A stretch of 62,274 bases of DNA, taken from IMG/VR virus record IMGVR_UViG_3300035701_007061, positions 1 through 62,274 of that record; one strand, 5' to 3'. Positions 42,838 to 59,828 of this stretch are shown piece by piece; the stretch's first letter is position 1, and every line of letters begins with the position of its first letter. The position numbers were made by a program, and so were the translations under genes. The notes below the pieces were generated by a model, which saw only the letters and a program-made list of their open reading frames with translations, had not been told where the DNA came from and did not search any database. Origin of the DNA: a virus.

Positions 42838-44721
42838 TTACAACAATCCTTCACTTATTAATCTTTGAGCAAATGATTCAACATCATTATATGTTTCGAC
42901 ATCTCCATTTTTGTCAACAATATATTCTTCCAATAATGGCTCACCATTTTTTTCATCATAATTAGATTTGATAGTGATATATCCATCATCAGTTTTTATT
43001 GAATCTTCAGTAGAATATTTTTTTGTTGAATCAACCATTGGCAAAGAAAATTCTTCTACAGATACTTCTGCTGGTTCTACCATTTCAATAATAGCTGAAA
43101 CTTTTTCATCAAAAGATTTTTTCTCTTTATAATGAGGCTCTGGCTTTTTAGTTAATTTTCCACCTTTGCCCCATGATTCTCCAGGTTTTTTCTTACTCAT
43201 CCACCAACTATTATGAACAAAAACACCTGCATCAAGCGCAAAATTGTGATATTTATCAACTGTAAAATCATAAACATCTTCTTTAATATCAATCAATCTA
43301 ACATTAATAACTTTATGATTTACAATCATATTATGTCTTTTTTCAGTCTCAAAAACAATATTGTCAATAGATCCAAATTTTTCTATTGCTTTATCAAATG
43401 GCGGATTCTTTCTGGTTCGTCTAAATCGTTCCCAGGAGTCTTCATTAATTGGAAGTACAGCATCTAATATTCTTTTTGCAACTTTTAAAATTCTAGACTT
43501 TATCATACTGCCATATAAACTTCTGTCTTTTGCGTATTTTTTTAATGTTTCTACATCATTAAATAATTCAATAGCCGTACTAAAATTAGGGCTTGAAGCA
43601 TATCCTTTGTGCTCACTCCAAGTCGCTTCATTAACATCTAATCCTAAAGAAATTATTTTTGCTGCTATTTTTGTAATTTTACCTTTTGTCATTGAACCAT
43701 TAAGAGTTCTTTCAGCAACAGCATCTTTAGTTTTTTGTGAATTATTAAATTTTAACAATGCTTTTCTTCCTGTTTCTGCGCCTAATTGCCCATTTTTTTT
43801 ACAATTTTCAATTTGTTGTTCTCTTTGCTCTTGCCATAATTTTTTCATGTTTTTCTTGCCATTAATAGACGACATTTTTCGTCCTTTTTCAGATCTAATA
43901 TATTCTATTAAATGCTTAGCACCATCTTGTTGTCTATGAAATTTAGAATGATCACTAGCTGTCATGATTTTAATATTTTCTGGATGATTATTGTCTTTAT
44001 TAAAGTCATAATGATGATTAATAAACCCAGATTGCCATTCTTTACCAAAATTATATGCAGCAACTATACGATGAACAAAATGTTTTTTACCATCTTTTGA
44101 CCACACTCTTTTATAATCTTGACAAAATGATCCTTCATGCCTGTCAAAATAAATTGGCATTAATGAATCGTTTGACTTTAAATTTTTTGCTTCTTTATAT
44201 GATCCATCTTGCATTAAAAATTTATGAAATAATGTGCATTTTATTTTCTGTCCATTGTCTAATTCTATTTCAAGCACATTAGCGTTTTCTGCAGTTTTAT
44301 GAAAATTAAATGCTCGACCAACAACAACTTTATCATTTTCAATGTCATACGAATAAACATAAGTATCTTTATCGTTTCCAAATTCTTTAACCAATTCAAT
44401 CATTGTTAATACTCTACCATCTAACAATGGAACTTTTGTATCTGCAGTAAAACATAATGCCCATGGGTTTGTAATATTTTTATGCGATTTCATAGCCTCA
44501 GTGGTTCCCTTCCATCCTTTTGGCGACACTGCCTCTTTCTCTTCTGCAGCCAAAATCTCTGTAGCAATTTTTTCAACATTGCTCATGTTTGACTCCTTTA
44601 CTCTATTTTTAAATTGTCGTTTGACTTGTTTTTGTAACATGTCTGGTAGACTAACATACTGTTTTTCAAGTTGATCTAAACCAGACGTACCGTAATCTCT
44701 ATTTTCAATTAATGGTTGCAT
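42838..44721 (-). CDS. small phage structural-type protein interrupted by an HNH intein
   Basis: 627 residues of which residues 90-504 are an intein. The spliced host protein would be 212 residues: an N-terminal helical part with KGWKGTTEAMKSHKNITNPWAL, joined to SWWMSKKKPGESWGKGG and a C-terminal part ending in FAQRLISEGLL. Proteins with the NPWALxWWM-type motif recur in large phages without known function. The insertion point splits the most conserved stretch, as inteins usually do. The start overlaps the stop of the Ig-domain gene (TAATG). Host function unknown. Confidence 0.8.
   Translation of the reverse strand: MQPLIENRDYGTSGLDQLEKQYVSLPDMLQKQVKRQFKNRVKESNMSNVEKIATEILAAEEKEAVSPKGWKGTTEAMKSHKNITNPWALCFTADTKVPLLDGRVLTMIELVKEFGNDKDTYVYSYDIENDKVVVGRAFNFHKTAENANVLEIELDNGQKIKCTLFHKFLMQDGSYKEAKNLKSNDSLMPIYFDRHEGSFCQDYKRVWSKDGKKHFVHRIVAAYNFGKEWQSGFINHHYDFNKDNNHPENIKIMTASDHSKFHRQQDGAKHLIEYIRSEKGRKMSSINGKKNMKKLWQEQREQQIENCKKNGQLGAETGRKALLKFNNSQKTKDAVAERTLNGSMTKGKITKIAAKIISLGLDVNEATWSEHKGYASSPNFSTAIELFNDVETLKKYAKDRSLYGSMIKSRILKVAKRILDAVLPINEDSWERFRRTRKNPPFDKAIEKFGSIDNIVFETEKRHNMIVNHKVINVRLIDIKEDVYDFTVDKYHNFALDAGVFVHNSWWMSKKKPGESWGKGGKLTKKPEPHYKEKKSFDEKVSAIIEMVEPAEVSVEEFSLPMVDSTKKYSTEDSIKTDDGYITIKSNYDEKNGEPLLEEYIVDKNGDVETYNDVESFAQRLISEGLL
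43210..44454 (-). other. intein with HNH homing endonuclease
   Basis: 415 residues, Cys90 to Asn504. Block A CFTADTKVPLLDG; block B KCTLFHKFL, where His of TxxH is present; block F VYDFTVDKYHNFALDAG; block G FVHN followed by Ser. Between B and F lies an HNH endonuclease: HRIVAAYNFG, GFINHHYDFNKDNNHPENI and TASDHSKFHR, followed by two copies of a helical NUMOD-like repeat (LNGSMTKGKITKIAAKI and LYGSMIKSRILKVAKRI). HNH rather than LAGLIDADG is the less common inteinic nuclease class. All splicing residues are intact. Confidence 0.88.
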
Positions 44722-45556: not shown

Positions 45557-46306
45557 CTAGTACTGAGCAATTCTTGATTTTGATACTACAACATCGTCTC
45601 TGTCAATTTTCAATAAACCGCTAATCTCATCTTCGGTACGACCCTTTGACAACATATCTAAAATTTTAGAATCTAAATTAATATTGTCAAATTCAGACTT
45701 AAGCGTCTTGACAATTGCATTCATTGCATCTGTATCTTCTATTAATATTCCGCCAGTAAAATTAGCTAACGTCTTAAAACATAATGATGTATATTTATTC
45801 ACAATTAAACTAATTGCATAAATAATAACATTCTTTTCTTGCGCAACATTAATAGCATCACCCCATGTTTTACCACATAAACAACAATCTTCATACGACA
45901 TCATACCATGTGCTGGTGCATCTCCAATTAAAAAAGCAATTCTTCTACTATCTTCACGCCAACTCATATTATTTATGCCGTCAATAATGCCGTCAATCAC
46001 TGCTTCTGGAATATCACCGCCACCTCTAACTGTAATTTTAGATATTGTATCAGATATTGTTTCAACATTATTTAAGTCAAATGTCACTGTCACAAAAGTC
46101 TCTTCTTGTGACGGATGATCTCTATATACACTTAATCCAACTTTTAAATCTATTGTAGGCAACAACAATCCATTATTATTATTGTAACTATTTGTCTCTT
46201 GACATAATGATGTTAACATGTTTTGCATCTTACATTTAGCATCATTTATAAACCCTCCCATTGAACCTGTAACATCAACAATAAATAATAAATCTATTTT
46301 ATTCAT
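45557..46306 (-). CDS. von Willebrand factor A domain protein
   Basis: 249 residues from ATG 46306, which overlaps the preceding stop (TAATG) and has an AGGAGG site; a longer ORF start at 46351 is not needed. The MIDAS is LLFIVDVTGSMGGF (DxTGS), with the later metal residues in VRGGGDIPEAV and FLIGDAPAHG. The C-terminal 45 residues form a helix-turn-helix-like segment (RTEDEISGLLKIDRDDV). vWA domains bind partners through a divalent metal. It ends an operon with two zinc-motif genes and is the second vWA gene of the region. Confidence 0.82.
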   Translation of the reverse strand: MNKIDLLFIVDVTGSMGGFINDAKCKMQNMLTSLCQETNSYNNNNGLLLPTIDLKVGLSVYRDHPSQEETFVTVTFDLNNVETISDTISKITVRGGGDIPEAVIDGIIDGINNMSWREDSRRIAFLIGDAPAHGMMSYEDCCLCGKTWGDAINVAQEKNVIIYAISLIVNKYTSLCFKTLANFTGGILIEDTDAMNAIVKTLKSEFDNINLDSKILDMLSKGRTEDEISGLLKIDRDDVVVSKSRIAQY

Positions 46307-47499
46307 TATTTTCCTCCTACTGGTAATGAATCCAAAAATGATTCTTTGCACCCAGTCAAATTGTTTAATCCATCTTCAACAAATCTTTCAAATTGCTCGC
46401 GAAAAACAAAGTAAATTCTTATAATACCAGATGGTTCATCTTGCCAAGCTTTTATTGACCTCATATCTTTTTCAATCATTTGCCGTATTTTTTCACCTGC
46501 ACCAATACCAACACTAGCATCTATCGATCGTTCCCGCTCTTCTAATATTAAACCGCTAGACGTCTTTATTTCAAAAGCCTCTGCAGCAGCCACTGGCATA
46601 GCACATATAGTGCTACCAATTGTATCATCAATTGTTGAAGATGAATTACTATCACTCATGTCGTGCACACTGTCATCACTCATATAAAGTGAACTGTAAT
46701 ATATGCCGGGCGTAGCAGAGTGCGGTAAAGACTTTCTGCTACATTTTGATCGAGCATCGGACCCACAAACTCCTGATGATCCCTTAAATCCTGTATATCC
46801 ACGCATACCCATTGATCCTGTAACACCAAATGTCCGTGCAGACTCTTGTTCAGTTGGCCATATATTTTTTAATCTTTTTCCGTTTTCAAACTTAACTTTT
46901 TTATCTTTTAATGAATAAAAACAAAATCCAAAAGCAGGCATAGTGTCTTCTTTGCCAATAACAAGCTCAGGAATTGACTTCATCATATCTTCAGTAAAAT
47001 AAAATTGTCTAACTTCGCCATCAGACGATCTAAATCCATCAAGATAAAACTTGCAAGGATCTGCAACATAATTTTGTTCTGGCCATTTAAAATTACATTC
47101 AGAACAAAACTTACCATATTTAAATTGTATATCATGAACAGGACATTTATTCATATATTGTTCCAATCCAAGCCCGTCAATTCGTTGACCAGTTATAGGA
47201 TTCATGCCTTTCACTGATGTCAATATTGCAATATCTCGTTTATTCATTTCCCAGTTAAACCACAGTGCCCAATCTGATTCAATGGGACATACATACGATC
47301 CTTGACCACCAATCCAAAAATTTGGTCTATTCTTAAGATAATCTACAGGTAAACATGGAATTGGAATGCCAGGAGGCAAATTACCATTATGATTATCAAC
47401 TTTATCAGTTCTCATTATTGACACATAATGACCATTTATATTCATTATTCGATTCATATTTTTAGTTACAGCAAAACCCAATGCATCTCTTGAAATCAT
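46306..47499 (-). CDS. zinc-motif protein with collagen-like segment, vWA operon
   Basis: 397 residues. Near residue 118 is CPVH-x9-C-x-E-C-x2-KWP, the same motif as in the upstream neighbour. Residues about 226-250 are eight consecutive G-x-x triplets (GVTGSMGMRGYTGFK...), a short collagen-like run. The C-terminal third contains a Ser/Asp-rich linker and a helix (EKIRQMIEKDMRSIKAW). I do not recognise the family. Its stop overlaps the start of the vWA gene, so the two products are made together and may form a complex. Confidence 0.6.
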   Translation of the reverse strand: MISRDALGFAVTKNMNRIMNINGHYVSIMRTDKVDNHNGNLPPGIPIPCLPVDYLKNRPNFWIGGQGSYVCPIESDWALWFNWEMNKRDIAILTSVKGMNPITGQRIDGLGLEQYMNKCPVHDIQFKYGKFCSECNFKWPEQNYVADPCKFYLDGFRSSDGEVRQFYFTEDMMKSIPELVIGKEDTMPAFGFCFYSLKDKKVKFENGKRLKNIWPTEQESARTFGVTGSMGMRGYTGFKGSSGVCGSDARSKCSRKSLPHSATPGIYYSSLYMSDDSVHDMSDSNSSSTIDDTIGSTICAMPVAAAEAFEIKTSSGLILEERERSIDASVGIGAGEKIRQMIEKDMRSIKAWQDEPSGIIRIYFVFREQFERFVEDGLNNLTGCKESFLDSLPVGGK

Positions 47500-47520
47500 A
47501 ATTTCATCCCTTCAAAATTT

Positions 47521-47546
47521 AATGCAGCTCTACTTAGAGCTGCATT
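47521..47546. terminator. strong hairpin between zinc-motif genes
   Basis: Perfect 11-bp inverted repeat (AATGCAGCTCT / AGAGCTGCATT) with a four-base loop, six bases after the upstream stop. A T-run follows on the plus strand and a weaker TTAAATTTT on the minus strand. Probably a partial terminator or mRNA stabiliser within the operon. Confidence 0.65.
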
Positions 47547-47551
47547 ATTTT

Positions 47552-48493
47552 TTAGTATTGTTTATGTATTACTCTAAAAGGATCACCGTTTTTAGTTGAA
47601 GATAATCTTCGTTTCATAACAGGAAGACTGTCAGTTTCTTCCAGCTCTTGAAATTTAAGCATTATTTTAGGATAATGACTTTTCAACTCTTCAAGTATGT
47701 AACGGTCTTCTGAATCATCTTCTGAATATGCTCTAATAGCAGTTGGCTGCACTTTTTCAATTTGTGACATCAATCGAATAAATGCATATTTTTTCTTGTT
47801 TTTCTCAAAATTAGGCCATTTAATGCCACATTCTTCACAATAACCGTCAGTCAGTAAAACATTAGAATGAACTGGGCATTCATAAAGTACATCCATTGGA
47901 AATTCACCAACAGCATATACCTTGCAAATTTTACCAGCAACTTCAAACGTTGACGGAGTTAGTGCATATCTTGCTTGACGTAACAATACTAGTGATGTGT
48001 CAATGTCAATTTTTTTATTGTTATAATCAAAAAATACAATGCATGGTCTATCTTTAGACCTCTTTCGTAATTCTTCAACTATTTCAAAAGATGTATCTTT
48101 ATCATACTTATGTAATAAATCTGTATCAGACCATTGACCAATCGGTTTTTGCATTTCCAATTGCTTCATAACAACACTAACTACATCAACATTATGCGGC
48201 ATTTCAACTTCTTTTTGTTTAAATGGATCAATACCCTTTAATATCAACAACATTATTTTCAATCTTGGCCCCGGAATAACTGAAATAGCTACAATTGAGG
48301 ATTTCAATTTTTCAACGTCATCAATTGAAACTGCTGCAGATTCTAATATTTGAATTCCAAGATCAGTGTCGTCAATACCCAATTTTTGAAGTATGTTATC
48401 AATCGCTTGAACGGGATCTGTTTCTTTGAAAAATGGTCTAATAATATTTGCGGCTTGCTCTATGCGGGATTTTAAAACTTCATTCGTAAACAT
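47552..48493 (-). CDS. zinc-motif protein, vWA operon
   Basis: 313 residues. A helical N-terminal 100 residues, a central beta-rich part (RPCIVFFDYNNKKIDID), then CPVH-x9-C-x-E-C-x2-KWP near residue 220, identical in layout to its downstream neighbour. The tail is basic (KRRLSSTKNGDPFRVIHKQY). The shared motif with otherwise different sequence suggests a domain that binds a common partner. The gene has a strong AAGGAG site and an unusual leader with three similar hairpins. No known family recognised. Confidence 0.6.
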   Translation of the reverse strand: MFTNEVLKSRIEQAANIIRPFFKETDPVQAIDNILQKLGIDDTDLGIQILESAAVSIDDVEKLKSSIVAISVIPGPRLKIMLLILKGIDPFKQKEVEMPHNVDVVSVVMKQLEMQKPIGQWSDTDLLHKYDKDTSFEIVEELRKRSKDRPCIVFFDYNNKKIDIDTSLVLLRQARYALTPSTFEVAGKICKVYAVGEFPMDVLYECPVHSNVLLTDGYCEECGIKWPNFEKNKKKYAFIRLMSQIEKVQPTAIRAYSEDDSEDRYILEELKSHYPKIMLKFQELEETDSLPVMKRRLSSTKNGDPFRVIHKQY

Positions 48494-48512
48494 TCTTAAT
48501 CTCCTTGTTTTT

Positions 48513-48588
48513 GAACCTTTATTCAGTTCGGTTGTGTTATACCTTTTATTCAGTATAACAATTTTGTTTTTTGACCTTTAATCAGTCA
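48513..48588 (-). promoter_or_regulatory. three-hairpin array in the leader of the zinc-motif gene
   Basis: On the minus strand three hairpins carry nearly the same loop on different stems: TGAC-TGATTAAAG-GTCA (48588-48572), TGTTATAC-TGAATAAAAG-GTATAACA (48560-48535) and GAAC-TGAATAAAG-GTTC (48529-48513). Stems change by compensating pairs while the loop stays, which is the mark of selected RNA structure. It ends about 20 bases before the start codon. Probable binding sites for an RNA-binding translational regulator. Confidence 0.65.
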
Positions 48589-48685
48589 GTAAATTAATCT
48601 AATGCATTTTAACTATTGACAATATCCTCCTTTCATTTTATTGTAATAATAAAATACTTTATCAACAAATTTTTAAAATTTACAA

Positions 48686-49348
48686 TTATTTGTTTATTAT
48701 TGAATAATATTTGAGCATTTCATGAGTATCAAAAAGCTTAGGCGTTGAACCAGATTTATTTTGCAGGTAGTGTTTATTGACTTGACGTATTAGCCATTTC
48801 TTCAATTTATTTGAAACAAATTCAGATACATTAGGATATATGCTAAATATAGGAATATACCGTTTATGAACCTTAATAGGATAAGATTTGACATTATCAA
48901 GACTTGACACTTGAAGATAAGCAAGGACTAATGAAGCCCTTATTGATATAATATTTTCTGAAAACTCTTTACAATATTTTTGTTTTTTAACTTGAGTTAT
49001 TTTTGCATTAGAATCAACAATAGTTTGAATAGTGTTTAATTTTTTAACTGTTTCATTTACATCTTGACCAAAATAAGCAATTATATCTTCTTCAGAAAAA
49101 ATTGGCGAATTTTCAGTAATGTATGATATTAATAATGCTAAGATTGAATCAGCAATGTTTTTCTTGATAAGTTGTAATAACGTTTTAATTGCTGTTTCAA
49201 AGTAATCATCATCTTGCTTAAATTGTGTAAGTCGAATATACTTTGACAGCTTGTAAACAAACAATATATTATTTAATTCTGATTGATTTTTAACAATCTT
49301 AGATAAAGACAGAGATAGTGAATAAACATCATTATCAATATTTAGCAT
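48686..49348 (-). CDS. unknown protein, possibly a degenerate RelA/SpoT-type HD domain
   Basis: 220 residues from ATG 49348, chosen because a GTG at 49411 would lie deep in the upstream gene. Largely helical. The stretch ADSILALLISYITENS...SEEDIIAYFGQDVNETVKKL matches the spacing of the HD helices of RelA/SpoT proteins (usually AALLHDVVEDT...FG.EV..LV). The His-Asp pair is replaced, so no hydrolase activity would be expected. The resemblance is only by eye. It ends the small-gene series after the kinase and precedes the hairpin array. Confidence 0.4.
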   Translation of the reverse strand: MLNIDNDVYSLSLSLSKIVKNQSELNNILFVYKLSKYIRLTQFKQDDDYFETAIKTLLQLIKKNIADSILALLISYITENSPIFSEEDIIAYFGQDVNETVKKLNTIQTIVDSNAKITQVKKQKYCKEFSENIISIRASLVLAYLQVSSLDNVKSYPIKVHKRYIPIFSIYPNVSEFVSNKLKKWLIRQVNKHYLQNKSGSTPKLFDTHEMLKYYSIINK

Positions 49349-49349
49349 A

Positions 49350-49679
49350 TTATTCAAAACTAAAAGGTCGATTTGAAAATTTTTGTTTTTGTGACAGTTG
49401 TTCTTGCTCACTCAATATAAAGTTAAATTTATTAATTTGTAGAGATTGTTTAGTAATAAAATGTGAAAGTGAAAACGTTTTTTGATCTGACAGATTTAAT
49501 GTAACATCACAATCAATCAAACTTATTCTCAAAACATCACTACAAAATTGTGTCAAATAATTCTCAGCTAACACTTGCAATGTCAACTTGCATGTGTCAT
49601 CATAAACTACTATATTCTGTCCTGCTTTGTCAATAGATAATAGTTGACGAAAATCTTTATATATCATGTCACATTTCAT
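49350..49679 (-). CDS. small unknown protein
   Basis: About 109 residues; the ATG at 49679 is preferred over a GTG at 49685 that overlaps the upstream stop. Beta-rich middle (VVYDDTCKLTLQVLAENYL; ISLIDCDVTLNLSD) and a Gln-rich polar tail. No motif recognised. Closely packed with both neighbours in an operon. Confidence 0.45.
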   Translation of the reverse strand: MKCDMIYKDFRQLLSIDKAGQNIVVYDDTCKLTLQVLAENYLTQFCSDVLRISLIDCDVTLNLSDQKTFSLSHFITKQSLQINKFNFILSEQEQLSQKQKFSNRPFSFE

Positions 49680-49681
49680 CG

Positions 49682-49942
49682 TCACTTAATTATCTCTCCA
49701 GTTTTATATGACCAAAAAACCAAATCTAAATGATCAATATTTAACTCAATATACTTTGCAAAATCAATCATCTTTTGCTCAACTTCTTTATATTCTTTTT
49801 TATTTCTTGGTTTTTGTACATTACATCCCAACAAATTAAGCATCGAAATAACGTGTTTATCTAATATCGCAAAACCAGTAAAACCAATGTTTCTTAAAAA
49901 ATGACTACATTCTTTATAGCCAATACCAATTATATTAATCAT
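49682..49942 (-). CDS. C-terminal fragment of an Ogg-type DNA glycosylase/AP lyase
   Basis: 86 residues. IGIGYKECSHFLRNIGFTGFAILDKHV matches the helix-hairpin-helix and catalytic region of archaeal/Thermotoga-type 8-oxoguanine glycosylases (Ogg2), including the expected catalytic Lys (GYKE) and Asp (ILDKH). The full enzymes are about 200 residues; here the N-terminal half is missing and not found in other frames upstream. It has an AGG site and an ATG, so a short product may be made. Either a gene relic or a domain co-opted for another role. Confidence 0.6.
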   Translation of the reverse strand: MINIIGIGYKECSHFLRNIGFTGFAILDKHVISMLNLLGCNVQKPRNKKEYKEVEQKMIDFAKYIELNIDHLDLVFWSYKTGEIIK

Positions 49943-50022
49943 CTAACCTAAAAATTATATGATGTTTCACTTCATTATAATACATTTTTAAATCATTAAC
50001 GTCCGAGCAATGGTGAAGTGCA

Positions 50023-50226
50023 TTAGCATTTGGCTTTAGCCCATAGCACCATTGCTTTGTTGTATGCTGTGTAAAGGAGCCTCCACAATATCCAGTGCGT
50101 TTTGAAGCTCCTTGAAGTGATTCCACAGCGACGGCATATAAAATTATGACCAGTATTTTTCCACAAACCCAAACTACCAGTATAAAACGAATGCCCGAAC
50201 AGCCGACAGAAAAACACACCTATCAT
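50023..50226 (-). CDS. small zinc-binding protein
   Basis: 67 residues from an ATG with a strong AAAGGAG site. An N-terminal FFCRLFGHSF and FICRRCG give a C...H...CxxC zinc-finger-like pattern typical of small phage proteins, followed by aromatic/basic sequence. An alternative ORF in another frame (49935-50219) lacks a ribosome site and is rejected. The 80 bases between this gene and the glycosylase fragment hold no convincing ORF. Confidence 0.6.
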   Translation of the reverse strand: MIGVFFCRLFGHSFYTGSLGLWKNTGHNFICRRCGITSRSFKTHWILWRLLYTAYNKAMVLWAKAKC

Positions 50227-50292
50227 ATAAAAGCTCCTTTACAACATCATTTATAATTATAGAACTATTTATTTTAATTATGTCCATACATC

Positions 50293-51981
50293 TTACTTCA
50301 TTGATACTGAATATAATTTGTTACCATCAACAAATAATGGCTGCATGTCTTGATGATGTAATCTCATTGAAACATCTAACGGCAAATTCGTAGTTATTTC
50401 TTTTACACTTTTCTCAGTAAATATAGACAACTTTTCATCATCAATTGCTATTGCTAATTTGTTCGGTAATACGACAAAATTGACTGAACAAAAAGCACTA
50501 ATTTCTTCTTGCTTCAATGTATGACTTGAATGATCATTATTAAAATAAATTATTGTTTTCGTATATTTTCCGTGCTTTTCAGACATTACTATACATACAT
50601 ATTTATCATATCTAGCATCAATAATACGATGACCATCTAACTCATTAATATGAATATTTATGCAAGATTTTCTTTCAAATGGTATTGCAATCCTACATTT
50701 TATAAATACATCTTGCACAACTACACCTCTAAATGCCTTGTATGATTTTCCAACATTACATACTTCAATTGTTGAATGAATTATTTTCTTACCAAATAAC
50801 TCGAAACTGTTTTCTATTAATTTGCCATTATTCATAGAATAAACCATACCATTGTAGCCCATCATGTCTTCAGCTTCAATAGCACTAAGAAGATTATGCT
50901 GTAAATCAAAAAACTCTAATCTCTTGTTAACTAATTCAGCAACTATTGGCTTTTGATTAAAAACATCGCACATGCCAACTGTCGCACTTTTTATTTTAAA
51001 GTCATATATTTTTTTACCACTATCATCATATATATGCTTAGAAGTGACTATATATCTATTTGTATAAAACACAATCACTCCTCTGATATTCTCTTCAACT
51101 TCTGCAACAAGCTTAACAATAAAATCACCTTTACTGCCAACAACTCTAGTCACTGCAGCAGTTATTACTACATCATCTGCGTATGGCGGAACTGATCGTT
51201 CTTTTTTCATAAAAACAGCTTTATACCATTCAAGGTGTTTTTTAGGAATAACTGAAAATGGTTGACATGTGTCAGGCAAAGTAACATCTTTGTCAAACAC
51301 AGAAACATTAAGATCCATTCTCTTCATAAATTCAGCTGGTTTAAATGTCGGATGTATACCTTTATAAGGATGAATTCCAATGTACATTTGAAATGTGACA
51401 ACTGCCCATGAAAACCAATCAGTAACTTCTGAATATTGACCCATTGGCACAGTTCTATCTCTTATTGATTCCATGATAACAGGAGCATTAAAATTTTTAG
51501 TTTGCCATGAATCAACATCAATATGATAAACGCGACAAAATGCTTTGTCTAACAAAAAATTCATTTCATTATAATCGACTACAAGAATACCATTTGTATG
51601 TATGTATTTTAAGCTTTCTTGCATGTTTTTTACTAAATCAATTATTTGTTGAGTTGTGATATTTTTGTCATCTCGAAAAGTTTTTGTGAAAATTTGACAT
51701 AAAAATTCTGTATCATCAATGTATGACATTGTAAAGCCTATCTGGTCTTTACTCATATTATAAATGATATCTTTTGGCGACAAAATCTCATCACGTTGCA
51801 ATTTACAAAGCTCTCTAATCTTTACCTCAGCAATCATATCACTTGAGTCGTGGTATATCTTGTATGCAACATTGTCTTTAACATACACGACAGCTTGACC
51901 ACCTGCAGCTTTGTAGTCATTGTTATTGTCCAATGTCACGACTTTATTTTGTACTAAAATTTTCTGAACATCTACTTTCAT
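50293..51981 (-). CDS. Ser/Thr protein kinase with C-terminal propeller-like region (TerY-P type)
   Basis: 562 residues from ATG 51981 (ATGA overlap with the phosphatase stop). Kinase domain about 20-280: Gly-rich loop AAGGQAVVYV, Lys in VAYKIYHD, catalytic loop GILVVDYNEMNFLLD (Asp and Asn present, HRD replaced by VVD), and metal Asp in YHIDVDSW in place of DFG. Residues 290-562 are repeated beta-strand units like a propeller (VGMCDVFNQKPIVAEL...LYSVSM). Directly coupled to a PP2C phosphatase and near a vWA gene, the arrangement described for the TerY phosphorylation triad. Substrates unknown. Confidence 0.78.
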   Translation of the reverse strand: MKVDVQKILVQNKVVTLDNNNDYKAAGGQAVVYVKDNVAYKIYHDSSDMIAEVKIRELCKLQRDEILSPKDIIYNMSKDQIGFTMSYIDDTEFLCQIFTKTFRDDKNITTQQIIDLVKNMQESLKYIHTNGILVVDYNEMNFLLDKAFCRVYHIDVDSWQTKNFNAPVIMESIRDRTVPMGQYSEVTDWFSWAVVTFQMYIGIHPYKGIHPTFKPAEFMKRMDLNVSVFDKDVTLPDTCQPFSVIPKKHLEWYKAVFMKKERSVPPYADDVVITAAVTRVVGSKGDFIVKLVAEVEENIRGVIVFYTNRYIVTSKHIYDDSGKKIYDFKIKSATVGMCDVFNQKPIVAELVNKRLEFFDLQHNLLSAIEAEDMMGYNGMVYSMNNGKLIENSFELFGKKIIHSTIEVCNVGKSYKAFRGVVVQDVFIKCRIAIPFERKSCINIHINELDGHRIIDARYDKYVCIVMSEKHGKYTKTIIYFNNDHSSHTLKQEEISAFCSVNFVVLPNKLAIAIDDEKLSIFTEKSVKEITTNLPLDVSMRLHHQDMQPLFVDGNKLYSVSMK

Positions 51982-52805
51982 ATTATTATAGCTCCACAGC
52001 AAATATCATCATAATGCGACCATTGCATTTTTAAAGCTTTCTTTTTCAAAAATTTCATACAACACTCAACAAATACACCATCAGTTGATGCAAAATCTGT
52101 AAACTCAGCTGCCATTGTCAATAATGATATATCAATAATATTCTTTTCCTTATACGACTTAATGCCATCTGAACATATCGTTATTGACGACTGTAATCTA
52201 GGAGTATAAAGAGAAGCAATACATTTAAATGGATCTTGACTTTTATCAACAACTGTTGGCACAGCATCCGTACCCAACCAATAATCTTTAACAACAACTT
52301 CACAAGGCTCATTCGAATCTCTTCGATCATTTCTATAAGCTTGCTCATCAGTCACAAGATAAATCGGTGCTCCGCATGGATAAGAAATCTCTTTAACATT
52401 GATTTCTCCCGTTGACCACTTACTAATGATTACTCCATCACCCCATGAAAATGTGTAAGCATTGTTACCATAAGCTAAAGCAATATGTAATGTTGCTTGT
52501 AAAGAGGCTTGCGGAATTGGATACAGCTTTCGAATATCATCAATTCGTTTAAAAATACTGTTACCCAATAACGATGATAAAGCATCAAGATCACATTGTT
52601 TAAATATTCTCGACTGATGTAATAATATTATAGTATGTTTTGCAACATGACATATTATTTGAGCGCCTATCTCAGAATGCTCTGCTTCAGAGCATCCATC
52701 AGATATAATTGAATATGTCATGCCGTCGTATGAACCACTCAATGCATAATCTTGACAAACAATATGACTGGAACCTATTTCAAAATAAGAATCACTATTC
52801 ATCAT
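51978..52805 (-). CDS. PP2C-type protein phosphatase
   Basis: 275 residues with a GGAGG site; the second of two adjacent ATGs (52802) is equally likely. PP2C motifs: CQDYAL with ISDGCSEAEHSEIGA (first metal Asp pair), FSWGDGVII (motif with DG), ITICSDGIKSY, and the final YDDICCGAIII Asp pair. It would remove phosphate from Ser/Thr residues set by the adjacent kinase. Stop codon and kinase start overlap by four bases. This strict coupling implies matched amounts of the two enzymes. Confidence 0.85.
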   Translation of the reverse strand: MMNSDSYFEIGSSHIVCQDYALSGSYDGMTYSIISDGCSEAEHSEIGAQIICHVAKHTIILLHQSRIFKQCDLDALSSLLGNSIFKRIDDIRKLYPIPQASLQATLHIALAYGNNAYTFSWGDGVIISKWSTGEINVKEISYPCGAPIYLVTDEQAYRNDRRDSNEPCEVVVKDYWLGTDAVPTVVDKSQDPFKCIASLYTPRLQSSITICSDGIKSYKEKNIIDISLLTMAAEFTDFASTDGVFVECCMKFLKKKALKMQWSHYDDICCGAIII

Positions 52806-52866
52806 GCAACCTCCTGTTGACTTTGTTTATCGTTCATGCACCCTTGCAAAATTTTAGCCACTTTGT

Positions 52867-52974
52867 TTATATTATAAATGTCAAGTGCAAAATCTTGTAA
52901 TAGTTTCCAGTAAATACAAATATTGCACTACCGCTTCCAGGAATGTTTGTTGGTTTACTTATTGGATATCTCAT
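52867..52974 (-). CDS. possible 35-residue ORF or relic between vWA and phosphatase genes
   Basis: ATG at 52974 with GAGGAATATATCC upstream gives a short peptide starting MRYPISKPTNIPGSGSAIF. A second open frame immediately after (YWKLLQDFALDIYNINKVAK to a stop overlapping the phosphatase start) has no start codon of its own. Together they look like one small helical protein broken by a frameshift. Weak support only. Confidence 0.3.
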   Translation of the reverse strand: MRYPISKPTNIPGSGSAIFVFTGNYYKILHLTFII

Positions 52975-53023
52975 ATTTTCTACATAACAAACTGGATATA
53001 TTCCTCAATATCCAGCTCGCTCA

Positions 53024-53794
53024 TTAAAATTTAAGACTGATCGGTTGTGAAGGTCCGCCCGTACCTTTTGCTTGTGCCTGAGATGAAGTGCTACGACTAA
53101 CAAATTGAGCAAGTTTAGCTAATTTACCAGCACTAACTTCACCAACTGAAATGTATTCATCGAGTCCAGCTTCTTTAACGAACGCTTCAAGGCGAGCCTT
53201 GAAATGAGCATCTGTGTCATTAATACCGATAAGTATTGTACGAATTGATTCAAGAATTTCTTCAGTTTTAATCTTCTGAATCATTTCTTTAATATTTGCA
53301 GTCGTAATGTTCATGGACGCATTATTGTCGCCATCTGTTATAATAAACACTATAGCATTACAAGTAATTTTCTTTGTCTTGTAAAGCTTTGCAGTGTAAT
53401 CATGAAGTGTCTCAATTGCTTCAAGCGTGGCTTCATATAAAGGCGTTCCGCCATCAGGTTTAATTGCTCCTTTGTACTGAGCAGTATCAATAGTATCCAA
53501 TAAAGTATAACCATGAATTTCATCAATATGTGATCGATTCATGTCAGCATTAAACTTTGTTACACGAGCTAACAAATTGTTTTTTCTGGGAGACTTCTTA
53601 CATGCATTGATACTTTCAGAAATCATGTTTTCAAGATCATTTACAAAAGGACTAACAGAACCAGTAGCATCAACAACAATCTCAGTTATTGTGTACTCAG
53701 ACGCTCCTAGCTTTTCAGCCTTAACATTTGAATACTTAAAACCGCGTGCAGTCTGTGCTATGTCTGCATCAGTCATACCCATCATCTTTGGCAT
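53024..53794 (-). CDS. vWA domain protein, TerY-like
   Basis: 256 residues. MIDAS motif VVDATGSVSPF (DxTGSxS) near residue 46, Thr in GGTPLYEA near 118, and Asp in FIITDGDNNAS near 152, in the order and spacing of TerY-like vWA proteins. The C terminus is Ser/Gln/Gly-rich (RSTSSQAQAKGTGGPSQP). Good AAGGAG site. Followed in the same direction by PP2C phosphatase and kinase; this gene order is the reason for the TerY-P comparison. Preceded by the nicotinamidase gene with a 30-base gap, so the NAD genes and the triad are probably one transcript. Confidence 0.82.
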   Translation of the reverse strand: MPKMMGMTDADIAQTARGFKYSNVKAEKLGASEYTITEIVVDATGSVSPFVNDLENMISESINACKKSPRKNNLLARVTKFNADMNRSHIDEIHGYTLLDTIDTAQYKGAIKPDGGTPLYEATLEAIETLHDYTAKLYKTKKITCNAIVFIITDGDNNASMNITTANIKEMIQKIKTEEILESIRTILIGINDTDAHFKARLEAFVKEAGLDEYISVGEVSAGKLAKLAQFVSRSTSSQAQAKGTGGPSQPISLKF

Positions 53795-53827
53795 AATTAT
53801 TCTCCTTATTTAAAGTGTCAATTCTGT

Positions 53828-54637
53828 TTAGAAAAATGTCTTTGTCGTGGCAGTACGCATTCCTTTTGCAACCATACGATTAACAAAATCATCGCCGTCC
53901 TTTTCAAAGCCACCCACACTTGAAGTTGCATCAGTAAGAAGCACAATCTTCTTAACCTGATCATCTCCAAAATCCTCAGCAATGTCAGACATTGTAAAAT
54001 TCAAACAGTGAGAAAGTGCCCAACCCCATACAAGGATATCATCAAACGTCTTCAAAACATTAACAAAGTCATTATTAAACCTTGTTGAAATATCTTTCGG
54101 ATATTCTACTTCTGCCTTAACAGCAGAATAATGTTCAGTAAACATACATGAACCTTTTGTAGTCCTCACAGCCATAGCATAAAAGTCATGCTCCCACTTA
54201 GTCACTGCTTCATATATAACAGGATCAATTTTTTGCCCATCTGATCCAATAATACAATGATCATTCCATATACACACAGTAAACCGCTTGTTCTTCATCA
54301 ATTGCTCAGTATAATACTCAGACCACTGTTGCCGCGCTGGATCATTTGCTCTAAAATCCTTGCTCATAACAGCATCATGCGGAATAAGAGTAAATTGTTT
54401 AGGATGATTATTATTCTTATCCAACCACCAACAAGAATGTGCAATATGGATATGATAATGTGAATCCATCGTAAGCTGAATATCATCGATGTCTCCACCA
54501 TATCGAGTTATCATCTTTGACACATTGTCAGCGCCAGCAACAGCACCGTCAACCTTAAGCTTAGCTTGTCCACTACGATTTACAAAATCGTCTTGTGGAT
54601 CAATTCCAAGAACACAAACTTTTCTTTTTGTAGCCAT
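53828..54637 (-). CDS. pncA: nicotinamidase-like isochorismatase-fold hydrolase
   Basis: About 269 residues from ATG 54637, six bases after AAAGG. Catalytic Asp in VLGIDPQDDFV; metal ligands in MDSHYHIHIAHSCWW (D-x-H-x-H); a Lys/Arg region; catalytic Cys in WALSHCLNFT. All three active-site elements of nicotinamidase are present. It would hydrolyse nicotinamide to nicotinate and ammonia, supplying the next two enzymes encoded upstream. Somewhat longer than the bacterial family (about 210) because of loops near 80-110. Other amides are possible substrates. Confidence 0.78.
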   Translation of the reverse strand: MATKRKVCVLGIDPQDDFVNRSGQAKLKVDGAVAGADNVSKMITRYGGDIDDIQLTMDSHYHIHIAHSCWWLDKNNNHPKQFTLIPHDAVMSKDFRANDPARQQWSEYYTEQLMKNKRFTVCIWNDHCIIGSDGQKIDPVIYEAVTKWEHDFYAMAVRTTKGSCMFTEHYSAVKAEVEYPKDISTRFNNDFVNVLKTFDDILVWGWALSHCLNFTMSDIAEDFGDDQVKKIVLLTDATSSVGGFEKDGDDFVNRMVAKGMRTATTKTFF

Positions 54638-54656
54638 ACACATCCTTTCATTTAAT

Positions 54657-55463
54657 TTAATTATAGTTGCATATTAACGGCATTACCATTTTATGCAAAT
54701 TATTTTCGTGCCTTTTTAAATAATTATATAAAGTCTTTTCTTCAACATCAACCAATTCAATAAAACCTAATTTTTTCAATTCTTCATAGTGTTGAACAGT
54801 CTCAATCTTCAATTTTTCACAAAATAACATTGCTTTTTCAAGATTTACATAAGTATCACCTATCTGATCTTCGTCAGTACGATTATCACCCCAAAGTCCA
54901 TCTGTAGGTTTTGCCTGTTGTATTGATGGAATAATCTCAAAATATCTTGCAATATCATATACTTCAGACTTCATAAAATCACCTATTGGACTAATATCTA
55001 CTCCGCCATCACCATACTTCGTAAAAAAACCAATGCCAAAATCTTCAATTTTATTTCCTGTACCAACCACTAAACATCCAAAACTATTAGCATAAGCATA
55101 TAATGTAGTCATTCTCAATCTAGACCTCATATTTGCAAGCACTAAATCATAATTTAAACACAGTCGAATAGAGTCTTTTAATGATTCAAATGCTTCCGTC
55201 AAATCTAAATAATAAGACACAACATTAGAATATCTCTCTAATAACCACGTTACGTGATCTGAAGCTTGGTCAATTTGTGTTTGACATTGATGTATTGGTA
55301 AACTAATAACCATAGTAGATTTATCTGTTTCAGCACAAAGAGCAGATACAACAGCAGAATCAATTCCCCCAGAAATACCAATAACAAATCCATTTTGTTT
55401 AGAGTCAACTAATCTACAATTAAGCCAATTAATTACTTTTTTAATTTCATTTTCACTTATCAT
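54657..55463 (-). CDS. nadE: NH3-dependent NAD synthetase
   Basis: 268 residues from ATG 55463 (GGGAG site). The P-loop of ATP pyrophosphatases, GISGGIDSAVVSALC, lies near residue 33. VGTGNKIEDFGIGFFTKYGDG, PIGDFMKSEV and QAKPTDGLWGDNRTDEDQIG are family signatures near 135-205. No glutaminase domain, so it uses ammonia to convert deamido-NAD to NAD. The start overlaps the preceding regulator gene by 11 bases. Length and motifs are normal, indicating an active enzyme. Confidence 0.92.
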   Translation of the reverse strand: MISENEIKKVINWLNCRLVDSKQNGFVIGISGGIDSAVVSALCAETDKSTMVISLPIHQCQTQIDQASDHVTWLLERYSNVVSYYLDLTEAFESLKDSIRLCLNYDLVLANMRSRLRMTTLYAYANSFGCLVVGTGNKIEDFGIGFFTKYGDGGVDISPIGDFMKSEVYDIARYFEIIPSIQQAKPTDGLWGDNRTDEDQIGDTYVNLEKAMLFCEKLKIETVQHYEELKKLGFIELVDVEEKTLYNYLKRHENNLHKMVMPLICNYN

Positions 55464-56181
55464 TTTTTGGTCTCCCAACATTATTAATTGGAATATTTAA
55501 TTTTCTCAAACTAAGATAAATTGTACTTGCAGACGTATGCATTTTTTTTGCAATTTCATCAAGGTTTAATTTCTTCTCTACATACAATTTATATAACTTG
55601 TCACTTGAAACAGTTTGAACAAATAACTTTTTCTTTTCTATTTTTTTATTAAAAACATACCGTTTCAAAATATTAATAGCATCTTCAAAAGTCAAAGCAT
55701 ATCCTAAGCACATCTGACTTTGAGGCGTATATATAAAATATCTTTTATTTTTTCTATTATGCATATATGGAAATTTACCGCTTTCTTTTTCACAAAGAAG
55801 TCTTGAATCAGGATCTTTAAACCGTCTTTTCAAACATTCTAAAATCACTTTAGATTTATCAACAACAACATAAGATAATTTATAATCTTTAAACTTGTGA
55901 TAATGTGCTTTAGCAATTATTCTAATATTAGCTTTTGAATACAAATAAATCTTTTCATCTTTTCCTTGAAATATAACTATACCCGGCATTTTTGGAAGTA
56001 ATGATATTACGGGCCGATTCTCTCTAAATATAGCTTTTAACTCATAATCTATGCCATAATACAGCGCTTTTTGATGTACTGCTTGATGAGACACACCTAT
56101 TTGATTTGCTAAATCTTTTAAACAAGTAGCTTTTATTCTTTCTGCTATACTCAACAACTCACTAGTTGACGTTTTTTCCAT
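55453..56181 (-). CDS. DNA-binding protein with two helix-turn-helix regions
   Basis: 242 residues. An N-terminal HTH (CLKDLANQIGVSHQAVHQKA, about 20-39) and a C-terminal HTH (LNLDEIAKKMHTSASTIYLSL, about 208-228) flank a mixed alpha/beta middle with aromatic and basic residues (NRKNKRYFIYTPQSQM). It lies between nadE and the nicotinate phosphoribosyltransferase gene, overlapping nadE. It could regulate the NAD operon, or be a homing-nuclease-like DNA-binding protein that lost its nuclease. No ligand-binding domain recognised. Confidence 0.6.
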   Translation of the reverse strand: MEKTSTSELLSIAERIKATCLKDLANQIGVSHQAVHQKALYYGIDYELKAIFRENRPVISLLPKMPGIVIFQGKDEKIYLYSKANIRIIAKAHYHKFKDYKLSYVVVDKSKVILECLKRRFKDPDSRLLCEKESGKFPYMHNRKNKRYFIYTPQSQMCLGYALTFEDAINILKRYVFNKKIEKKKLFVQTVSSDKLYKLYVEKKLNLDEIAKKMHTSASTIYLSLRKLNIPINNVGRPKNDK

Positions 56182-56187
56182 CTTTCC

Positions 56188-57354
56188 TCAAAATAACTTT
56201 AATGTCTCTTTACATAACCTCACTTCAGCTTCATTACCAGTATTCTTTGACTCAGTATCTGATAACTTTACTGCCCATACCCATCGACCATTTACATAGC
56301 ACGCAGTCAACTTAATAACCATATTCAATGGCGTAACACCAACATCATTGGACATCCATGTACCTGGCCCATATCGATCATTTATTCGATTCTTACAATA
56401 ATCATGAATTTGTGTAACTTTACCTATACTATTTATATTGTCAGAATACAATATAGTCTTAAACATCGGCGACACTTTCAATTTTCTATAATGATCAACA
56501 ACCTTATCAGTAAAAACAAATGGATCAAATGAATCATGTCGCAAACCATCCCACAACTTAGTATGATATGTATTAAACGACCTCAAAAACTCGTCTGTCG
56601 TAAATGTATCCGGCAAAGCTATTCCAAGATCACCCTGATAAACATTTGACCATGCATCTAAAGACGCTTTATTTGCCATTTGATATCCGAACATAGCTGC
56701 ATGTGCAGATATCCATTCATGAGCAAGTGTTCCCATTGGTGTAAGTTCATACAACATAGCCAAATATGGATTAGATGTGCCTACTAAATGATTACCTGCA
56801 TATTCTTTCATGTCAGCGACACACATTTTCTGATTCTCAAATGAATATCTTCGTCTTGTACCAAACTCAGAAAAGTACACGCCCAAATTAGCTAATGCAA
56901 CAGCTTTATCATGATTAATCTTATGTCGCTCTTCTATAGATAAACCTTTCAACCCCTTCATCTCAAAATACAGTTCGCTTATCGTTGCCATCAATGGTAC
57001 TTCCCACAAAATCGTTCGATACCAATAACCTTCAACTGTCACAAATAAATGACCACCTGGCTGAGAAATACTTACTTCAGATGGATCATACTGATAACCA
57101 CTCAAAAAATCAAGATACATACTTGGTAAATAATAACACTTATATCTAAGAAAATCTTTCTCATTTTTTTTAAGTGTTAGTCCTCTATAACTATCTACAA
57201 TTTCTTTTAATCGATTTGCAAAACCTACAGGAAATTCTACGTCGTCTCTAATTATTAAAGTATACCGAACTTTCAAATCCGGATATAACTTACAAACTGC
57301 CCATTCCATAGTAAATTTATATAAATCATTGTCAATGAGACTTGTATGATACAT
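56188..57354 (-). CDS. pncB: nicotinate phosphoribosyltransferase
   Basis: 388 residues. The N terminus SLIDNDLYKFTMEWAV is the family signature. LWEVPLMATISELYFEMKG, FGTRRRYSFENQ (catalytic phosphoribosyl site), LVGTSNPYLAMLY and PMGTLAHEWISAHAA (with the conserved His) follow in order. It makes nicotinate mononucleotide from nicotinate and PRPP, using ATP. It is the first large gene of the NAD salvage group; with nadE and pncA it covers the pathway except the NadD adenylylation step. Motifs are intact. Confidence 0.9.
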   Translation of the reverse strand: MYHTSLIDNDLYKFTMEWAVCKLYPDLKVRYTLIIRDDVEFPVGFANRLKEIVDSYRGLTLKKNEKDFLRYKCYYLPSMYLDFLSGYQYDPSEVSISQPGGHLFVTVEGYWYRTILWEVPLMATISELYFEMKGLKGLSIEERHKINHDKAVALANLGVYFSEFGTRRRYSFENQKMCVADMKEYAGNHLVGTSNPYLAMLYELTPMGTLAHEWISAHAAMFGYQMANKASLDAWSNVYQGDLGIALPDTFTTDEFLRSFNTYHTKLWDGLRHDSFDPFVFTDKVVDHYRKLKVSPMFKTILYSDNINSIGKVTQIHDYCKNRINDRYGPGTWMSNDVGVTPLNMVIKLTACYVNGRWVWAVKLSDTESKNTGNEAEVRLCKETLKLF

Positions 57355-57820: not shown

Positions 57821-57895
57821 TGGCTGGAGCACATGGACTCGAACCATGAAAAGAAACTCCAAGGGCTTCTGTGTTGCCAATTACACCATGCTCCA
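57821..57895 (-). tRNA. tRNA-Gln (anticodon TTG), CCA encoded, C33 variant
   Basis: Cloverleaf: acceptor TGGAGCA/TGCTCCA, D stem GTGT/ACAC, anticodon stem GAAGC/GTTTC with loop CCTTGGA, T stem CATGG/CCATG with loop TTCGAGT, G73 and encoded CCA. U1-A72 and G73 fit glutamine identity. The base at position 33 is C instead of the nearly universal U, which could impair the anticodon turn. Confidence 0.88.
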
Positions 57896-57926
57896 GTATA
57901 TTTTCAATCATTAATCCAATGATTTA

Positions 57927-57999
57927 TCGGGGCAATCAGAGTCGAACTGATAACCGCATGAACCCAAATCATGTGCTCAGCCAATTGAGCTACGCCCCG
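57927..57999 (-). tRNA. tRNA-Pro (anticodon TGG)
   Basis: Acceptor CGGGGCG/TGCCCCG, D stem GCTC/GAGC, anticodon stem CATGA/TCATG with loop TTTGGGT, T stem ATCAG/CTGAT with loop TTCGACT, A73. No encoded CCA. A regular molecule in every arm. Lies 31 bases upstream of tRNA-Gln in the same transcript. Confidence 0.92.
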
Positions 58000-58011
58000 T
58001 TTATTCCAAAT

Positions 58012-58052
58012 AAAAAAAGAGTCCCTCTTTTTCAAGTGAGACTCTTTTTTTA
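58012..58052 (-). terminator. Rho-independent terminator upstream of tRNA-Pro
   Basis: Minus-strand arms AAAAAAGAGTC/GACTCTTTTTT with a further internal stem TCAC/... and a long U tail. It also has A/T runs on both sides so could act in both directions. Lies between the metallophosphoesterase transcript and the tRNA pair. Confidence 0.8.
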
Positions 58053-58077
58053 TTCAATAACTTCTACACTATCTCAC

Positions 58078-58155
58078 TCAAACATTATTCTTGCCTTTTG
58101 GTCGCGGTTGTCGTTGACCTAGCCGATATAAACTGTTTGAATTAAGATTTTTCAT
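58078..58155 (-). CDS. 25-residue basic micro-ORF
   Basis: ATG at 58155 with TAGGTGATG upstream encodes a short basic peptide (SLYRLGQRQPRPKGKNN near its C terminus). It lies between the metallophosphoesterase gene and a strong terminator. Site and position favour translation, but so short an ORF could be chance. Confidence 0.35.
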   Translation of the reverse strand: MKNLNSNSLYRLGQRQPRPKGKNNV

Positions 58156-58210
58156 AATTTCATCACCTATACTTAATATATATCATTTTAGTCAAAGAAA
58201 CATATTTTTA

Positions 58211-58933
58211 TTATATCTCAATTATTTTTTCAAATAATATGTTGAAATTACCTATTTGCTTATCATCGTGAAAATGTCCACAAAAATACTCTTTAAACTT
58301 CACTTTATTACAAACTTCTTGCAAAAACTTTGCAACTGAATCTTCGATATTATCTTTAATGTATTGTTCCTGTATCTCGTCATCTTTAATAATCTCATAA
58401 TATTTATATATCATAGTTACTGGTAATGTATGCGCTATTATATAATCTACTTCATTATTGTTCTTCTCTAAATTACTCAATGCATTTTCAATCTCTTTAT
58501 ATGAATGCTCTTCTTCTTTCCACCAACTAATATTCACAATCCTGCTACTTTTATCAGTACTCCTAGCTCCGCCCATACAAAAGAATTTCTTACCATCTAT
58601 GCTATAAATCTCTCCTCTTTTCAAATGATATATCTTGTCACTTACTTTACCAACTTTACCACCAAACATCTCTACTTCAGACAATCTATTCAACCTAGCA
58701 AAGTTCTCGTGATTTCCATCAATAAATGCTACAGTGTACATTCTTTCATTCAACCATTTAGTCCAGTATGCTTCTTCATTATCTAGATAATTTTTCCATA
58801 ATAAACCAAAATCACCACATACTATCACTATAGCAGCTTCTTCTTTAAACGTTTTTTGAACTGAGAAATTAGTTGAATTAAGTTTACTAATATCATAAGG
58901 TATATGAGTATCACCAGTTATAAATATTCGCAT
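58211..58933 (-). CDS. calcineurin-like metallophosphoesterase
   Basis: 240 residues. All metal-binding motifs are present: FITGDTHIP (D-x-H), VCGDFGLL (GD), IDGNHENF (GNHE, about 73), YIIAHTLPV (H) and YFCGHFHDD (GHxH). MGGARSTDKSSR carries an extra conserved segment of the phage/YfcE-like branch. It hydrolyses phosphomonoesters or diesters; the substrate cannot be told. Free-standing gene with a weak upstream region. Its length is normal for the family. Confidence 0.88.
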   Translation of the reverse strand: MRIFITGDTHIPYDISKLNSTNFSVQKTFKEEAAIVIVCGDFGLLWKNYLDNEEAYWTKWLNERMYTVAFIDGNHENFARLNRLSEVEMFGGKVGKVSDKIYHLKRGEIYSIDGKKFFCMGGARSTDKSSRIVNISWWKEEEHSYKEIENALSNLEKNNNEVDYIIAHTLPVTMIYKYYEIIKDDEIQEQYIKDNIEDSVAKFLQEVCNKVKFKEYFCGHFHDDKQIGNFNILFEKIIEI

Positions 58934-59044
58934 TTTGTCGGCTTACAATTATATAAATTACAAGATTTCATGTTAATCGAGTATTCATTGAAACTCTTAG
59001 ATCTTAACTTACGAATAGACTTATTTTTGAGTACATAATGACAT

Positions 59045-59073
59045 GATCCTTTCTTCGAAAGGCTCATTTTTTT
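59045..59073 (+). terminator. plus-strand terminator-like hairpin
   Basis: Stem CCTTTC/GAAAGG with a tetraloop-like TTCG centre, flanked by GA/TC with a T-C mismatch, then seven T after CTCA on the plus strand. No plus-strand gene precedes it, so the RNA it would terminate is unknown. Confidence 0.6.
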
Positions 59074-59351
59074 ATATGCATTTTCTCAACAAAAGTTTAC
59101 GAATGCTTAAAAAACTTTTTTTTTATGAACTGGGCGACTTAAATTCTAATTATAATGTTATTACTAAATAGTATCTCATTTTTAAATTTTTCTACAAAGT
59201 CTACGACAACTGACATTTCTCAACGCGTAGATGTAAATTATCGCGATACTACAAAACCAACTGTCCACATTCATCAAATTTTTCCTAAATGTAAACACAC
59301 TATAATTTTTAGTTGCAGCTTTCACGTGCAGAGATCGTAATTGTCTGTTTT

Positions 59352-59393
59352 CGCGCGTGTACGCGCACATCGCACTAGCGCGCACGCATCGCG
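59352..59393. other. CpG-rich alternating purine-pyrimidine segment
   Basis: CGCGCGTGTACGCGCACAT (59352-59370) is strictly alternating and can form a GCGCG/CGCGC hairpin. A second run lies at 59378-59389 and a third at 59570-59583. Such runs favour Z-DNA. The surrounding genome is very AT-rich, so this composition is exceptional. Confidence 0.7.
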
Positions 59394-59638: not shown

Positions 59639-59660
59639 AAAAGCCAGAAATCTGGCTTTT
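59639..59660. terminator. two-way terminator beside tRNA cluster
   Basis: Perfect 10-bp stem AAAAGCCAGA/TCTGGCTTTT with a two-base loop extended by A/T runs on both sides. Reads as a terminator from either strand; on the minus strand it would end the Ile-Thr-Arg tRNA transcript. Confidence 0.8.
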
Positions 59661-59817: not shown

Positions 59818-59828
59818 AAAATCTATAA

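Follow-up and report, generated by a model that had tools for sequence, protein, structure and literature searches.

The four-gene set of the window

The window analysed here is the complete IMG/VR record IMGVR_UViG_3300035701_007061 (62,274 bases), which is still a genome fragment. It is a phage contig, with genes for a major head protein, a head maturation protease, a portal protein, a large terminase and two topoisomerase II subunits on its minus strand. Our interest is in four consecutive minus-strand genes, downstream of pncB and nadE, that encode a PncA-like nicotinamidase, a TerY-like von Willebrand factor A (vWA) protein, a PP2C-type phosphatase and a Ser/Thr kinase (Table 1). A reading made from the letters alone (hereafter the sequence-only reading) had proposed that a vWA-phosphatase-kinase set like the TerY-P triads is joined here to nicotinamide adenine dinucleotide (NAD) salvage genes. 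The genes it named lie on the minus strand where it placed them, with pncB, nadE, PP2C and the kinase recognized by profile and PncA by family profile. The proposed link is strongly supported, as the vWA protein is TerY-like and the association is seen across many loci.

The nicotinamidase is the least conspicuous of the four. Searched singly against Pfam, the window protein had no match; the profile of its family, compared with the PDB, matches solved nicotinamidases (2e-13). The catalytic Asp-Lys-Cys residues (D15, K163 and C213) and the metal site (D60, H62 and H129) are invariant in 76 dereplicated members, and the active-site residues persist in distant bacterial versions. We predict from these features that the product is a PncA-type nicotinamidase that deamidates nicotinamide.

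The sole profile match of the vWA protein taken alone is phrog_7371 (7e-12). Its AlphaFold2 (AF2) model has the vWA fold (predicted local distance difference test, pLDDT, 90.0), and within its metal-ion-dependent adhesion site (D42-x-T-x-S46, T117 and D154) D42, S46, T117 and D154 are invariant in 80 members. Compared by hhalign, the family profile aligns with TerY of plasmid R478 at an E value of 2e-10 over 186 columns, including a Ser-rich C-terminal helix, and with the TerY_C protein at 2.5e-6; the control values are 0.013 for TerF, 8e-4 over 31 columns only for another plasmid vWA protein, and 0.01 for a second vWA protein of the window. On these profile comparisons the protein is TerY-like. 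Its Ser-rich C-terminal tail is conserved across family members. No match to TerY_C itself (PF15616) was found in the window proteins or in 78 vWA members, whereas the R478 protein matches at 3e-53.

The metal-binding Asp residues of PP2C are invariant in 86 members, and its profile aligns with the R478 PP2C at 3e-5. The kinase starts at ATG 51981, rather than at TTG 52002, so that its start overlaps the end of the PP2C gene in an ATGA (51978-51981), indicating translational coupling. Coupling had been claimed for the whole trio; it holds for PP2C and the kinase, whereas the vWA and PP2C genes are separated by a gap of 218 nucleotides in which an RNA hairpin, a possible attenuator or processing site, directly follows the vWA stop codon.

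Catalytic residues of the kinase are invariant or nearly so across members. The AF2 model divides into a kinase domain (residues ~1-275), which VIA-align superposes on PknB with a Z score of 19 in an alignment restricted to that domain, and an all-beta domain (~285-562) of about 28 strands. The top Foldseek match of the model is LRRK2, whose kinase domain is accompanied by a WD40 propeller. The secondary structure of the model and this match are consistent with a seven-bladed propeller at the C terminus, in keeping with the propeller-like end that the sequence-only reading had noticed. The kinase profile aligns weakly with the R478 kinase (9e-4), the single reference used, and the kinase domain has weak matches to the defence kinase models mad6 and PD-T4-6, similar ones being given by the R478 kinase. 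PADLOC found no TerY-P system and no other convincing defence system match.

Table 1. Features of the NAD and signalling region of the window
Feature	Position	Strand	Evidence
pncB, nicotinate phosphoribosyltransferase, 388 aa	56188..57354	-	NF003704/TIGR01514 above cut-off; PF04095; PF17767
Helix-turn-helix (HTH) protein, 242 aa	55453..56181	-	weak HTH matches; phrog_8446 HNH-endonuclease family, 7e-8
nadE, NAD synthetase, 274 aa	54657..55481	-	PF02540, 5e-45; TIGR00552 above cut-off; phrog_11189, 1e-72
PncA-like nicotinamidase (predicted), 271 aa, core gene	53828..54643	-	family profile against PDB; catalytic residues
TerY-like vWA protein, 256 aa, core gene	53024..53794	-	AF2 fold; hhalign to R478 TerY; conservation
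RNA hairpin	52986..53021	-	fold -20.3 kcal/mol; z -4.2
PP2C-type protein phosphatase, 275 aa, core gene	51978..52805	-	PF13672 (PP2C_2), 5e-12; invariant metal-binding Asp
Ser/Thr protein kinase, 562 aa, core gene	50293..51981	-	PF00069, 4e-9; AF2 pLDDT 93.6

Recurrence of the set in large phages

Relatives of the kinase occur in the phage genomes LR756511 (595 kb), LR745208 (485 kb) and LR756500 (462 kb) and in many IMG/VR contigs of up to 619 kb. The order PncA-like, vWA, PP2C, kinase was found in all of the first ten loci. Dereplication yielded 90 viral and 24 cellular groups, and the four-gene set in its shared order was seen in about 80 dereplicated phage loci, with identities as low as roughly 25%. 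Among the 83 viral groups with both kinase and PP2C, the stretch compared includes a vWA gene in 75 and a PncA-like gene in 70. Order is kept in 70 of 71 neighbouring PncA-vWA pairs, 80 of 83 vWA-PP2C pairs and 95 of 97 PP2C-kinase pairs, and the core genes share one strand without exception (336/336, against 633/815, or 78%, of other nearby genes). In three loci (L043, L072 and L137) pncB and nadE are inserted within the set itself, between vWA and PP2C. The kinase reading frames missing from L037, L042, L057 and L069 were probably lost by a simple gene caller through overlapping frames, which makes the local counts lower bounds; stop recoding was considered as the cause and rejected, the matched stretches being free of stops.

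We then analysed 26 phage records of 170-619 kb, picked mainly by size and with local maps already known, by searching each end to end. Every record contains exactly one PncA-like gene and one kinase, at most 13 kb apart, so that the pair lies within 15 kb in 26/26 records against 2.5 expected. Of the 22 records with NadE, 13 have it no more than 10 kb from the kinase (1.35 expected), and of the 20 with a nicotinate or nicotinamide phosphoribosyltransferase (NAPRT/NAMPT), 8 have it at that distance or less (1.3 expected). A strict NrtR domain (PF21906) is present in five of the 26, in all five within 5 kb of the kinase; this figure is preferable to that of a broader NrtR cluster (22 viral loci), because some Nudix proteins in the latter lack the winged-helix domain of NrtR. 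In 20,000 random placements the observed counts were never reached. The NAD and signalling genes of large phages are thus kept together, the opposite of the unrelated loci that the sequence-only reading had named as evidence against itself.

Recurrent neighbours of the set are mostly NAD genes, those confirmed by Pfam being NrtR winged-helix/Nudix, CTP_transf_like (NadD type) and NADAR proteins; Ter, restriction or DNA-processing partners are not among the recurrent neighbours of the related loci. At least one of pncB, nadE, nadD, Nudix/NrtR-like and NAMPT genes is present in 43 of the 83 viral groups, and at least one NAD gene in 78 when PncA is counted. As NadE and PncB do not always adjoin the set, the nicotinamidase is its only constant NAD link. 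Judged from these gene maps, there is strong evidence that the nicotinamidase, the TerY-like vWA protein, PP2C and the kinase are inherited together as one unit with ties to NAD salvage.

The coupling of PP2C to the kinase, and the weak matches of the kinase domain to mad6 and PD-T4-6, would also fit a toxin-antitoxin or superinfection-exclusion module resembling KKP, in which the kinase becomes toxic once a competing phage inhibits the phosphatase and the NAD genes merely hitchhike in an island of accessory genes; phage-encoded kinase/phosphatase sets do act in this manner (PMC11341870). Hitchhiking does not explain, however, a nicotinamidase that is constant in all 26 records and in the distant bacterial versions. 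KKP, moreover, has two kinases and neither a vWA protein nor a nicotinamidase, and the defence-kinase matches are weak, involve no part beyond the kinase domain and have similar counterparts for the R478 kinase. We consider this explanation improbable.

The genes around the set in the window were also compared. The pncB product matches NF003704 at 8e-122, over the cut-off, and is 53-54% identical to the products of the set-adjoining genes in the closest relatives, L005 and L011. The HTH gene, listed by the sequence-only reading among the upstream genes, is present; at the corresponding place between the NAD genes of those two relatives it is absent, and its product resembles part of phage HNH-endonuclease proteins (phrog_8446). 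It is probably not a conserved part of the set. The same reading had drawn the genes at 45557-48493 into its programme. They comprise a second vWA gene (VWA_4, 6e-10) and two adjacent genes for CPVH-x13-CxEC proteins, one with a short collagen-like stretch. These genes do not belong to the conserved set, and we rejected them as members because the zinc-motif protein that was searched has no relatives among phages or IMG/VR and the vWA protein is not TerY-like. The central idea of that reading is right, and understated; its wider grouping is unsupported.

Some further features stand apart from these comparisons. Just upstream of the NAD genes of the window (57821-60504) are four tRNA genes (Gln, Pro, Thr and Ile) and a metallophosphoesterase gene. 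The product of the open reading frame at 42838-44721 looks like an intein-interrupted protein, the intein having an HNH-type endonuclease (phrog_7545, 4.5e-11) and CFTADTKVPLLDG...FVHNS-like splice motifs. Near six viral loci there is a macro-like family, named from its sequence and with no Pfam match, and in the huge phages L003, L010, L020, L049, L050 and L130 macro-like, NADAR, RNA ligase and Thg1-like genes are repeatedly found within ~10-20 kb of the set. This suggests a larger island of NAD/ADP-ribose and RNA-repair genes in huge phages.

Copies in cellular genomes

The set is also found in cells. Locus L174, from a metagenome-assembled genome (MAG) of Parcubacteria, has a full chromosomal operon reading NrtR-PncA-vWA-PP2C-kinase-PncB-NadE in one direction, with ndk and a tRNA nucleotidyltransferase-like gene recognized from sequence as neighbours. 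A 511-kb Acidobacteriota contig (L162) carries NrtR, PP2C and kinase genes with NADAR nearby. Among genomes sampled from these two phyla the kinase was found in 4 of 287 and 5 of 297, seeds counted. More distant versions, in Patescibacteria (L192 and L193) and Acidobacteriota (L195 and L197), possess all four genes in the transcription order PP2C, kinase, PncA, vWA; NrtR accompanies most of these four, and some have NadE or NADAR. In L194, NrtR, vWA, kinase, PP2C and PncB are retained. In L198 the vWA, PncA and PP2C genes were called, and a genome search gave a kinase match at the same place. Genes for NadE and NrtR accompany the set of L192, and two further neighbours were recognized by sequence only, one as a probable NAD kinase and the other as a PGRHHLL-type (NadM-like) protein.

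In the kinase tree the cellular members are scattered among viral ones, with at least eight changes of label forced by the starred branches. Because cellular and viral rows are mixed in this way, repeated transfer between cells and phages is probable; part of the MAG contigs may themselves be phage. One contig of 1.36 Mb assigned to Armatimonadetes (L168, JAFDWS010000002.1) carries the set and a PRPP-synthetase-like gene (PRPP, phosphoribosyl pyrophosphate) among phage-like neighbours, and its kinase is sister to that of a 479-kb phage contig (L060). As its neighbours are not clearly chromosomal, we did not count it as evidence for a chromosomal copy. TerY_C was found in none of six host genomes, a weak result since 14 control genomes gave none either.

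Proposed function and relation to known systems

In the Preiss-Handler route PncA converts nicotinamide to nicotinate, PncB forms nicotinate mononucleotide, NadD forms nicotinate adenine dinucleotide and NadE completes NAD. We propose, at a probability of roughly two in three, that the four genes form a module in which protein phosphorylation acts as a reversible switch on NAD salvage. The kinase would respond to NAD state as signalled by NAD itself, nicotinamide, ADP-ribose or a protein partner, perhaps via the propeller, which may serve as a sensing or docking part, and would phosphorylate the Ser-rich tail of the vWA protein, the nicotinamidase or both, with PP2C reversing the modification. 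The vWA protein, which has the nicotinamidase as its nearest neighbour in the genome, could then pass this state on to that enzyme and so set the flux of nicotinamide into NAD. In the window phage pncB and nadE would extend the route, with NadD supplied by the host or encoded elsewhere. The gain would be a supply of NAD during infection, also by recycling the nicotinamide that NAD-cleaving defences release.

Several observations weigh against this proposal. The 26 records share ancestry, and their counts are not independent draws. NadE and PncB are sometimes distant from the set, by up to about 200 kb, and no window protein, on a contig that is a fragment, matches a NadD-like profile. TerY proteins with no link to NAD have a C-terminal helix that resembles the Ser-rich tail, so that the tail need not be an NAD-specific phosphosite. 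Kinase activity and substrate, nicotinamidase activity and the effect on NAD are predictions from the genes.

A related explanation, possible though clearly less probable, is counter-defence resembling the NARP pathways: the triad would sense attack and activate salvage, and NAD would be rebuilt after cleavage by host defences. Rebuilding of NAD by phages is known (NARP1 and NARP2; PMC12300627, PMC13232231), nicotinamide, the substrate of nicotinamidases, is a product of NAD cleavage, and NADAR genes, whose products act on ADP-ribose species, are repeatedly found near the set. On the other hand, the occurrence of chromosomal copies in Patescibacteria and Acidobacteriota favours a role in general NAD homeostasis. 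The NAD requirement of huge phages may also be an ordinary one, for instance that of an NAD-dependent DNA ligase (a LigA-like gene is near five loci), and the sensing of defence by the triad is a supposition. The sequence-only reading had likewise seen the purpose in survival of NAD-depleting or Ter-type host defences, which we treat as conjecture. Counter-defence and the phosphorylation switch differ in purpose more than in mechanism, and our confidences in the two overlap.

Our analysis suggests that NAD supply is controlled through protein phosphorylation in large phages and in a few bacteria and archaea, apparently a form of control undescribed before. We give even odds to the wider proposition that the four proteins constitute a new NAD-control system, a single phosphorylation-driven salvage switch that is widespread in huge phages and also occurs in Patescibacteria, Acidobacteriota and archaeal MAGs. 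If the proposal is true, phages gain regulated, and not merely enzymatic, NAD upkeep in infection, which is relevant to the many defences that deplete NAD, and protein phosphorylation joins the known controls of bacterial NAD metabolism. We know of no firmly established input or output of TerY-P triads; a branch with a constant and readable metabolic partner, the nicotinamidase, makes the function of such triads testable.

Full-text literature searches, with thin coverage of subscription papers, did not find this gene combination. Nor is it mentioned in the searched passages of the reviews that Iyer and colleagues devoted to phage NAD systems. Related loci could be mentioned in Anantharaman 2012, reportedly the original description of TerY-P. 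In the portion of PMC9503650 that was covered, nicotinamidase, PncA, NadE and PP2C go unmentioned.

Among the closest known systems is the TerY-P triad, composed of a TerY vWA protein, PP2C and a Ser/Thr kinase, as in the ter region of plasmid R478 (PMC11090510, PMC4978471). Protein types and order (vWA-PP2C-kinase) agree with the R478 genes, as the sequence-only reading had said of TerY-P triads in general. These agreements, and the TerY-like vWA protein, would suit an ordinary TerY-P stress module that senses metal or DNA damage and adjoins NAD genes by chance. The TerY-P kinase, however, ends in a zinc ribbon or, in the Gao 2020 variant, an oligonucleotide/oligosaccharide-binding (OB) fold (PMC11090510), whereas the modelled C terminus of the phage-set kinase is propeller-like, with neither. 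The phage set is also without TerY_C and without Ter, restriction or DNA-processing partners, and has instead a constant nicotinamidase accompanied by NAD genes. We hold an ordinary stress module to be very unlikely. Because TerY_C, the zinc ribbon or OB fold and the Ter or restriction genes are lacking, the set is a TerY-P-like variant and not a standard member.

Phage-encoded NAD salvage enzymes are likewise found in NARP1 and NARP2 and in NadV-NadM-NadR sets (PMC9503650). The route in the window differs in using PncA, PncB and NadE, and the set adds a kinase, a phosphatase and a vWA protein. NARP1 is defined by the enzymes Adps and Namat. NARP2 consists of a nicotinamide phosphoribosyltransferase and a nicotinamide mononucleotide adenylyltransferase, whereas the window fragment has a nicotinate phosphoribosyltransferase and no match to the NadD-like profile. 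The prophage module KKP (kinase-kinase-phosphatase; PMC11341870) is similarly a phage-borne combination of kinase and phosphatase; the phage set has one kinase, one PP2C and one vWA protein in place of two kinases, and is joined to NAD genes that KKP lacks. Lastly, NrtR-type Nudix repressors adjoin NAD salvage genes in bacterial NrtR regulons, as they do beside the set in several loci; NrtR acts on transcription, whereas the phage set would act by protein phosphorylation.

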